From Actinomycetes bacterium (GTDB lineage: Bacteria; Actinomycetota; Actinomycetes; Nanopelagicales; Nanopelagicaceae), in assembly GCA_025363635.1 (NCBI GenBank), contig JANYDL010000054.1:1-49898 (forward strand): DNA of 49,898 bases, written 5' to 3'. Within the stretch, counting starts at the first letter, position 1. Each line of letters begins with the position of its first letter. The position numbers were made by a program, and so were the translations under genes. Shown here in pieces: positions 1,857 through 5,329 of the stretch. The notes under the pieces were generated by a model. That model had not been told where the DNA came from and ran no database searches. It saw only the letters and a list, made by a program, of their open reading frames with translations.

Positions 1857-1884
1857 TCGACATTTGGGGCGCCCTTGCTAAAGT
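1857..1884 (+). promoter_or_regulatory. Predicted promoter of the amino-acid ABC transporter operon
   Basis: A -35-like TCGACA (1857-1862) and a -10-like TAAAGT (1879-1884) lie 16 bases apart. Six bases further on is A1891, the predicted +1, exactly at the start of the folded leader, giving an untranslated leader of about 96 bases. The positions are seen; promoter activity is inferred. Confidence 0.5.
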
Positions 1885-1890
1885 ATCGCG

Positions 1891-1962
1891 AGGTCATGAG
1901 AGACAGCGAATAGCCTCGGCTAGCTGTACGACTACCCTCCACCGTGGTGGGGCGATGACGCG
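1891..1962 (+). ncRNA. Candidate SAM-I/SAM-IV-like riboswitch leader
   Basis: The leader can fold into a closing stem (GTCAT 1893-1897 with ATGAC 1955-1959), a second arm (ACAGC 1903-1907 with GCTGT 1923-1927, inner TAGCC/GGCTA) and a third arm (CCAC 1939-1942 with GTGG 1947-1950). Order and sequence (GGTCATGAG, ACAGCG, AGCC-CGGCT, ACCCTCC, GGTGGGG, GATGAC) closely follow the SAM-IV core as I remember it. Differences: the CGGCAACC internal loop reads CGACTACC, and the 3' joining segment that makes the SAM-IV pseudoknot is missing. It may therefore be a SAM-I/IV variant or a related aptamer with another ligand. It sits between the predicted +1 and an amino-acid importer, where a riboswitch would be expected. 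Confidence 0.45.
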
Positions 1963-1986
1963 GAAAAGGACTCTGGTGAATACACA

Positions 1987-2871: not shown

Positions 2872-3786
2872 ATGTCATCGCTCAACGAAGGTGCGAAATC
2901 AGGTCCAGGATCCTCTGGCTTTGAAAATCGCACCTTCGTTGCGTGGAAACCAAGCGCTTTAGAACTTGAGCGCAGAAAGATCAGAAGCCAACAAAACCAA
3001 CGGAATATTCTCATCGCTGGTCTTTCAAGTGTGGTCGTTCTTGGTGCTTTGCTGGCAGTTCTGGTCACCTCGCCGGGTTGGAAAAGTTTGACCGATACTT
3101 TCTTTGCTTGGGCTTATGGTTTCGAAGTTTTTCCAAAAATCATTTTGGGTTTTACAACAAACATCATGTTGACTCTCATCGCAGCAAGTTGCGTCGCTGT
3201 GATTGGAATGACCTTAGCGTTAATTCGCACATCTCGCTCGCCTGCCCTAACCCCTTTCAGAATTCTTGCAACTATTTACGTGGACATATTCCGTGGGATC
3301 CCGATGCTTCTCATTATTCTTCTCGTAGGTTTTGGAGTTCCGGCGCTACGCCTTCGCGGTGTGACCAATAATGTTCTAATTCTCGGAACGACAGCCGTCG
3401 TCATCACTTACTCAGCCTATGTAGCAGAAGTCCTCCGCAGCGGAATTCTCACCGTCCATCCAAGCCAACGTGCCGCCGCACGATCACTTGGTTTATCTAA
3501 TTTCCAAACGCTGAGACATGTGGTCCTTCCTCAGGCCCTGCGACGAGTTACTCCCCCTCTCCTCAACGATCTTGTATCGCTCATCAAGGACACCGGCCTA
3601 GTCTCAATATTGGGTGTCACTGACGCGGTAAGAGCGGCGCAGATTTCCAGCTCCAGAAGCTTCAACTACACCCCTTATGTCATGGCGGCCATTCTCTTCC
3701 TACTCGTAACGATCCCATTGACGCGATTTACCGATAGAACGATGAGGCAGGCAATTGAGCGACAGAATGCGCAGGGCAATGCATGA
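2872..3786 (+). CDS. Amino-acid ABC transporter permease (HisM/GlnP type)
   Basis: A 304-residue inner-membrane subunit of a polar amino-acid importer. A hydrophilic N-terminal stretch of about 45 residues precedes the first membrane helix, longer than in typical GlnP proteins. The BPD_transp_1 domain follows, with the EAA loop that docks on the ATPase (RSLGLSNFQTLRHVVLPQAL). The DIFRGIPMLLIILLVGFG segment is typical of the family. The ATG at 2872 lacks a good ribosome-binding site apart from the hairpin-buried AAGGAG 20 bases upstream. It overlaps the ATPase gene by 4 bases (ATGA), pointing to coupled translation. Confidence 0.93.
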   Translation: MSSLNEGAKSGPGSSGFENRTFVAWKPSALELERRKIRSQQNQRNILIAGLSSVVVLGALLAVLVTSPGWKSLTDTFFAWAYGFEVFPKIILGFTTNIMLTLIAASCVAVIGMTLALIRTSRSPALTPFRILATIYVDIFRGIPMLLIILLVGFGVPALRLRGVTNNVLILGTTAVVITYSAYVAEVLRSGILTVHPSQRAAARSLGLSNFQTLRHVVLPQALRRVTPPLLNDLVSLIKDTGLVSILGVTDAVRAAQISSSRSFNYTPYVMAAILFLLVTIPLTRFTDRTMRQAIERQNAQGNA

Positions 3787-4532
3787 ATACCCCCGTGCTT
3801 TCCCTCGATGGAGTTCGCAAATCTTTTGGAACCGATGTCGTCCTCGAGGATATTTCCTTTGACGTACCGGTTCACACCGCTACGGTCTTCATCGGCGCCT
3901 CTGGTTCAGGTAAGTCCACCCTTTTGCGCTGTATCAATCTTCTCGATGGAATAGATGACGGCGTGATCAGCCTTGATGGGGAATCAATAAGCGATCCACG
4001 CATCAATACCGATGAAGTGCGACGAAAATTGGGAATGGTTTTTCAATCATTTAATTTGTTTCCACATATGACGGTCATGGAAAACGTGACTCTTGCGCCC
4101 ATTCGCGTTCAAGGGCTATCAAAATCAGATGCGCAGGAGCAAGCGGCAGAACTTCTCAAAAGATTTGGGCTTCTCGATAAATCTGAAAGCTACCCTGATC
4201 GACTCAGCGGCGGCCAGCAACAACGTGTTGCGATCATTAGATCCCTAGCTGTCCGCCCGCGATTACTACTCTTAGATGAGATTACTTCCGCCTTGGATCC
4301 CGTTCTGGTCAATGAAGTGCTCAGCACTGTACGTGATTTGAAACGTGATGGTATGACGATGGTTTTAGCAACTCATGAAATGGGTTTTGCAAAACAAGTG
4401 GCTGACGAGGTTTGCTTTCTCCACGAAGGGCGAATTGTGGAATGGGGTCCGCCTGCACAAGTCCTAGACTCTCCGCAGGATTATCGAACGAGAGATTTTC
4501 TCAAGAGGGTTCATGAAGCCGGTCGCTTGTAG
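3783..4532 (+). CDS. Amino-acid ABC transporter ATP-binding protein (GlnQ type)
   Basis: A 249-residue ATPase that powers the importer from the cytoplasmic face. All motifs are intact: Walker A GASGSGKST, Q-loop VFQSFNLFPHMTV, signature LSGGQQQRVAI, Walker B LLLLDEITSALDP and switch histidine ATHEMGF. Length and motif spelling are standard for the polar amino-acid (GlnQ/HisP) group. It overlaps the permease by 4 bases and the next gene by 1 base, so all four genes probably share one transcript. Confidence 0.95.
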   Translation: MNTPVLSLDGVRKSFGTDVVLEDISFDVPVHTATVFIGASGSGKSTLLRCINLLDGIDDGVISLDGESISDPRINTDEVRRKLGMVFQSFNLFPHMTVMENVTLAPIRVQGLSKSDAQEQAAELLKRFGLLDKSESYPDRLSGGQQQRVAIIRSLAVRPRLLLLDEITSALDPVLVNEVLSTVRDLKRDGMTMVLATHEMGFAKQVADEVCFLHEGRIVEWGPPAQVLDSPQDYRTRDFLKRVHEAGRL

Positions 4533-5329
4533 TGGATGAGATTCCTAATCTTCGAATAATTCCGGGAGATCCACTTTCGCCTTTCATTCTGCATGTTCCA
4601 CATTCATCTCGCTTCATCCCAGATGAGGTACGTTCTGACATTCTCCTAACAGATGAAGATCTGAAAAATGAACTAGATGAGATGACCGATTCTCATACGG
4701 AGGTTCTAGCCGAAACCGCGGCCAGAGAATCAAAGATACGGCCTTGGATATTTCTTAACACTTTATCTCGTCTCGTAATCGATCCAGAACGTTTTCCTGA
4801 TGCCAGAGAACAAATGAATACGATAGGAATGGGTGCTGTTTATCAATCGACTTCAACGGGAAAAAACCTACGTCGCCCCGATGAGGGTAAAGAAAAGGAT
4901 TTACTTGAAAAATTTTTTCATCCTTATGCTCGCGTTTTCGAAAATTTCGTCACTCGCCGTCTTTCAACTCTCGATCAAGTCATCATCGTTGATGTGCACT
5001 CATACCGAGCTCGTATTCACATGAATTCCTTGAACAAAGGCCTACGACGTCCTGCGATATGTATAGGAGTAGATGGCTTTCACACCCCAGAATGGTTGCA
5101 AGAAAGAGCCAAGAAATGCTTCAGCCAAATCGGTGACATCGCCATCAACGAGCCTTACTCGGGTACTTATGTGCCACTTACTAAATGGGGCGTGGACGCG
5201 AAGGTTTCATCAATAATGATGGAAAATCGCGCTGACACTTTTGTAGATGATTCGCTACGGCTGACACAAGGTTTTAAGCCGCTTGCTCAAGCGCTAACAA
5301 ATTTCTTGAACGAAGGATCTAAGCCTTAA
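4532..5329 (+). CDS. N-formylglutamate amidohydrolase family enzyme
   Basis: A 265-residue member of the FGase family (N-formylglutamate amidohydrolase fold). The N-terminal LHVPHSSRFIPDEVR and the VDVHSYRAR region carry the histidines and acidic residues expected to bind the catalytic metal. The classical enzyme releases formate from N-formyl-L-glutamate, the last step of one histidine-degradation route. No other hut gene is in the window, so the true substrate may be another N-acylated amino acid. The GTG start overlaps the ATPase stop by one base, tying it to the importer: I infer that the imported compound or its derivative is deacylated here. The 3' end overlaps the opposing FAH gene by 11 bases. 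Confidence 0.8.
   Translation: MDEIPNLRIIPGDPLSPFILHVPHSSRFIPDEVRSDILLTDEDLKNELDEMTDSHTEVLAETAARESKIRPWIFLNTLSRLVIDPERFPDAREQMNTIGMGAVYQSTSTGKNLRRPDEGKEKDLLEKFFHPYARVFENFVTRRLSTLDQVIIVDVHSYRARIHMNSLNKGLRRPAICIGVDGFHTPEWLQERAKKCFSQIGDIAINEPYSGTYVPLTKWGVDAKVSSIMMENRADTFVDDSLRLTQGFKPLAQALTNFLNEGSKP

Follow-up and report, generated by a model that had tools for sequence, protein, structure and literature searches.

The SAM-IV riboswitch (Rfam RF00634), as resolved by cryo-EM, contains two pseudoknots, and its pocket residues 2-4, 7-8, 63-65 and 77 were modelled within 5 Å of SAM (PMC6890682). The SAM-I (RF00162) and SAM-I/IV (RF01725) riboswitches have the core pocket in common with SAM-IV. A literature search on riboswitch loss or truncation returned nothing on point, and no entry in which 'riboswitch' was paired with 'Nanopelagicales'. 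Here, we analysed 49,898 nt of contig JANYDL010000054.1 (this whole stretch is called the window) from a host assembly of 1.85 Mb in 104 contigs, and compared it with relatives, which are bins of freshwater actinobacteria of the Nanopelagicaceae type. The leader of an importer operon in the window shares with RF00634 the 5' half of the aptamer (P1 5' strand, J1/2, P2a/P2b, PK-1 loop and upper P3) and the position before a gene that bears a full SAM-IV in a sister species; unlike RF00634, it has no UGC, no PK-1 partner, no P1 3' strand and just one of the two sides of P5, and a pocket A is replaced by U. The leader is very probably a recently truncated SAM-IV riboswitch in which SAM sensing has most likely gone.

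Results

Promoter and importer operon

The promoter, the start of the leader, the ribosome-binding region and the genes behind it were located as follows.

1876-1884, + strand: conserved extended -10 promoter element TGCTAAAGT, read directly
1892-1900, + strand: GGTCATGAG, read directly
1976-1980, + strand: likely Shine-Dalgarno GGUGA, conserved as GGTGAATA in L095
1987-2847, + strand: family 3 extracellular solute-binding protein of an amino-acid importer (PF00497, 2.7e-24)
2872-3786, + strand: ABC permease (PF00528)
3783-4532, + strand: ABC ATPase, GlnQ-like (PF00005; nearest NCBIfam GlnQ, below cut-off)
4532-5329, + strand: N-formylglutamate-amidohydrolase-like enzyme (PF05013, 3.2e-36)

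Direct reading of the letters recovered all motif strings of the original prediction at their coordinates. The proposed promoter (-35-like TCGACA at 1857-1862, a 16-base spacer and TAAAGT at 1879-1884) is present as an arrangement, and its -10 part is well supported by TTGCTAAAGTA, a block conserved ahead of the same gene in both L095 and L094, whereas the -35 region is not alignable. The operon content proposed at the outset, i.e. binding protein, permease, ATPase and N-formylglutamate-amidohydrolase-like enzyme, was borne out by the domain matches. The gene for the last of these scores far below the HutG cut-off; most close relatives (L095-L102) retain it after the importer under SAM-IV control, and its substrate may, as a guess, be formylmethionine or some other N-formyl amino acid. 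A SulP-type permease gene (498-1754, - strand) is a conserved divergent neighbour in L094, L096-L098, L100 and L103 and is not there in L095.

The surviving half of a SAM-IV aptamer

In the cmscan of the window, RF00634 matched positions 1892-2007 with 42.5 bits (cut-off 38; E 0.0003 over the window as a whole) and was the sole match above any curated cut-off; a local scan gave nothing else at E<=1. The SAM-IV kinship first suspected from the motifs is thus confirmed by a match above the gathering cut-off and, judged from the letters, the leader RNA is real and SAM-IV by descent. SAM-I and SAM-I/IV were rejected as families for this leader, neither model matching anywhere in the genome at E<=0.001. 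What remains of the aptamer is the following.

1892-1952, + strand: surviving SAM-IV aptamer 5' half (P1 5' strand, J1/2, P2a, P2b, PK-1 loop, upper P3), RF00634 positions 1-62, 45.4 bits alone
1892-1895, + strand: P1 5' strand GGUC, its SAM-IV partner GACC deleted (GACC is found in the listed orthologous elements except L106)
1903-1927, + strand: P2a/P2b hairpin carrying the PK-1 loop CUCGG, every pair but 1902-1928 intact
1931-1934, + strand: altered ligand-side strand ACUA replacing GCAA (CM alignment)
1935-1952, + strand: upper P3 hairpin CCC-U-CCA/UGG-U-GGG, intact

This 61-nt half is 75-85% identical to intact orthologues (L095, L096-L103), with 85% for the copy in L095. In the P2a/P2b and P3 helices, 14 of 15 tested pairs hold. 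The homologous leaders that were collected included intact SAM-IV copies, and among 31 distinct intact copies the P2a pairs covary. Lower P3 is unformed in the importer leader and its partner strand is missing. The change on the ligand side had been correctly noticed (CGGCAACC to CGACTACC): U1933 stands in place of a pocket A, and CAA is found there in 31/31 distinct intact copies.

Strands removed by the deletion

Pairwise alignments to intact orthologous leaders placed a deletion at the end of this half, and two overlapping motifs that were read beyond it are listed with the junction.

1952-1953, + strand: deletion junction
1954-1959, + strand: GATGAC, read directly
1955-1959, + strand: AUGAC, aligned to ATGACAAGCG of L100 and GTGACAAGCG of L095, able to pair with GUCAU 1893-1897 as a neo-P1

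The strands gone at the junction are the UGC pocket segment, PK-1, the P1 3' strand and the P5 5' strand, and the leader is shorter by 30-36 nt than those of relatives with a short P5 and by 74 nt than that of L095, which has a long P5. From the alignments the breakpoint would lie about just 3' of P3 and is placed no more finely than that. After GGGG the importer leader reads CGA where 42/42 intact copies have TGC or TGT, i.e. the UGC segment (63-65) is not found. The CCGGG/CUGGG strand, the PK-1 partner of the P2 loop, is deleted; the original prediction had rightly noted the absence of a pseudoknot strand, and the best remaining candidate by inspection, CGCGG at 1959-1963, makes 4/5 pairs. 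For the P1 helix GGUC/GACC, only GACU at 1969-1972 or the neo-P1 strand AUGAC is left, and of the P5 hairpin with the PK-2 3' strand AAGCG, the P5 5' strand is deleted and the remnant reads AUGAC-GCG. Past the junction, the sequence corresponds to the terminal part of the L095 leader (GACG..GAAAAGGA..GGTGAATA), with 11 of 5000 shuffles doing as well. AUGAC at 1955-1959 is, judged by its alignment with L100, probably the former P5 3' strand. GATGAC had been taken for the P1 3' strand; it is not the SAM-IV P1 strand and most likely derives from the P5 3' strand after the deletion. Since the P5 and P1 5' strands both read GGUCAU in some relatives, AUGAC is able to pair with the old P1 strand, and this pairing accounts for the closed three-arm RNA that was originally described.

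Both 63-65 and 77 of the published pocket list lie within the deleted stretch. With 63-65 and the P1 3' strand with its contact residue 77 gone, the RNA is most likely unable to bind SAM, and we infer that SAM binding and regulation have been lost. Lacking these four defining features (UGC, PK-1, P1, and P5 with PK-2) in the alignments, the leader should not be classed as a functional SAM-IV riboswitch.

Complete, halved and absent copies in relatives

Orthologues of the binding protein were found across the family. The nearest relative, L095/G003 (a Lac Pavin MAG; binding protein 88% identical), has the same operon and the same -10 box and carries at the same position a SAM-IV of 81.5 bits which, unlike that in the window, is complete and keeps the P1, PK-1 and UGC segments. 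Complete elements also stand at this position before the same operon in L096, L097, L098, L099, L100, L101, L102 and L103, and intact copies before the importer, which most close relatives have, score 81-108 bits. In a tree of binding protein, permease and ATPase, the window joins L095 (support 96/90) and both sit within a set of mostly SAM-IV-bearing genomes, which indicates that the truncated state is derived. Descent from SAM-IV, missing strands and derived loss can all be read from the sequences.

The leader of L094/G002 has the -10 box (TTGCTAAAGTACCGCGA) and the importer in common with the window, and neither has a working SAM-IV; in L094/G002, however, no trace of the element remains in a leader of ~30 nt, unlike the half aptamer of the window. 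A single common loss shared with L094 passes the AU test (p-AU 0.16) without being favoured by the protein data, the best tree instead grouping the window with the intact L095. The element is also absent at the importer operon from several other lineages of the family, indicating that its loss there was repeated. In the same genome as the window, an intact SAM-IV (92 bits) precedes a metX-like gene, whose identity was read from the translation.

Neither the leader DNA search of 296 family genomes nor the leaders of ~120 importer loci (some genomes counted twice) yielded the truncated form elsewhere; these searches returned intact elements or none, and a wider truncated class was rejected. Two further partial matches to the profile, L141/L176 and L204, stop where the extracted stretch stops, and L196 covers 1-87. 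The proposal of a minimal SAM-I/IV variant or of a drifted aptamer for another metabolite is not supported, given the deletion through the pocket, the full aptamer in the sister and the lack of this form in the other family genomes searched; nor does the evidence favour a new class of aptamer.

Further SAM-IV elements were observed in the family. In L122, L130, L131, L136 and L142, a second SAM-IV follows ~2.6-3.6 kb further downstream, placing one such element on each side of the importer operon. A divergent SAM-IV-like subfamily (L002:1501-1616, i.e. G000:C77:9718-9833; L222:4914-5030; L222:9757-9873; L216; L217; L218) scores 43-66 bits where above cut-off, with L217 below it, and precedes different short ORFs; in most of its copies the pseudoknot CUCUGG/CCAGAG is perfect. 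Two full copies and one partial copy occur within ~6 kb in the relative G015, and the copy in the present genome reads GCUAACC where most others have CCAACC.

Folding, constraint and alternative readings

At 35 near-invariant positions the surviving half shows 2 deviations, one of them common to the intact L095. In the two flanking genes, 59-69% of fourfold sites differ between the window and L095, and free drift since the split predicts ~14-18 changes at 34 near-invariant positions, where 1 window-specific change was seen (an estimate from a single sequence under a simple model of substitution). The half is thus barely eroded, so either constraint was lifted no earlier than the last ~15-25% of the lineage or it still acts on the half. 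Judged by this comparison, either the deletion would be recent or the stub would keep some structural role.

A stub under constraint could be an RNA switch of another kind, in which the neo-P1 pairing of AUGAC with GUCAU frees GGUGA, UCAUGAGAG is otherwise paired to CUCUGGUGA so that the ribosome site is masked, and a ligand or the timing of folding chooses between the two. Both pairings are present in the sequence. In the minimum free energy fold (-31.3 kcal/mol), GGUGA 1976-1980 pairs with the region of the P1 5' strand at 1894-1897 and is predicted to be almost always paired, and forcing the neo-P1 gives -26.0 kcal/mol, a cost of 5.3 kcal/mol. Together with the uneroded half, these alternatives speak for such a switch; against it, the fold of the complete leader is no more stable than those of shuffled sequences (z -1.36), ATGAC turns up in ~7% of shuffled versions of the 20 bases that follow P3, and the truncated form occurs in a single genome and in no second one. 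We consider this reading unlikely. A more specific proposal, that the deletion rewired the riboswitch by freeing the P5 strand as a new P1 partner and that a ~60-nt aptamer or anti-Shine-Dalgarno switch, still maintained by selection, controls the importer, is a shade more doubtful still.

The leader could instead be SAM-IV with a drifted 3' half as laid out by the covariance model, with UGAC for UGCC, CGCGG as PK-1 strand and GACU as P1 3' strand. The model does align all 116 positions above the cut-off and a GGUC/GACU P1 is possible. However, adding the 3' part drops the score from 45.4 to 42.5 bits, which indicates that the full-length alignment of the 3' half is forced, and positions 1953-2030 alone gave no SAM match even at E 10. 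The PK-1 mismatch and the broken lower P3 also count against it, and what aligns over the junction is the final part of the L095 leader, making a drifted 3' half very improbable. Equally improbable is an assembly or consensus error in a metagenome bin whose organism has a normal SAM-IV here: the fragmentation into 104 contigs would allow it, but the pocket A-to-U change and a second small gap lie apart from the main junction, the flanking gene is intact and no obvious direct repeat was seen by eye at the junction.

Discussion

Truncation of a SAM-IV riboswitch is the reading we prefer, and the leader is most likely a control element caught midway through loss. By analogy with what SAM riboswitches are known to do, the ancestral SAM-IV presumably repressed the importer, whose substrate would be an amino acid (probably methionine or a related one), at high SAM. 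The tie to SAM and methionine that was first suggested for this locus therefore stands for the ancestral state, as complete SAM-IV elements precede the importer operon in relatives, but would not extend to the truncated copy, which is most likely blind to SAM.

In the present genome, transcription would start near 1891 and run into the old aptamer 5' half (P1 5' strand, P2 and upper P3), which the deletion would join straight to the old leader end and the ribosome-binding region. The importer operon would then run without SAM control, being either constitutive or set to a level by residual structure around the Shine-Dalgarno, and the importer would no longer answer to SAM while the metX-like gene keeps its intact SAM-IV.

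For annotation and regulon counts, the locus indicates that a database match above a curated cut-off can be a riboswitch without a complete pocket. For the family, one riboswitch is found in three states, complete, halved and gone, before one operon in close relatives, which may allow the loss of metabolite control to be traced stepwise.
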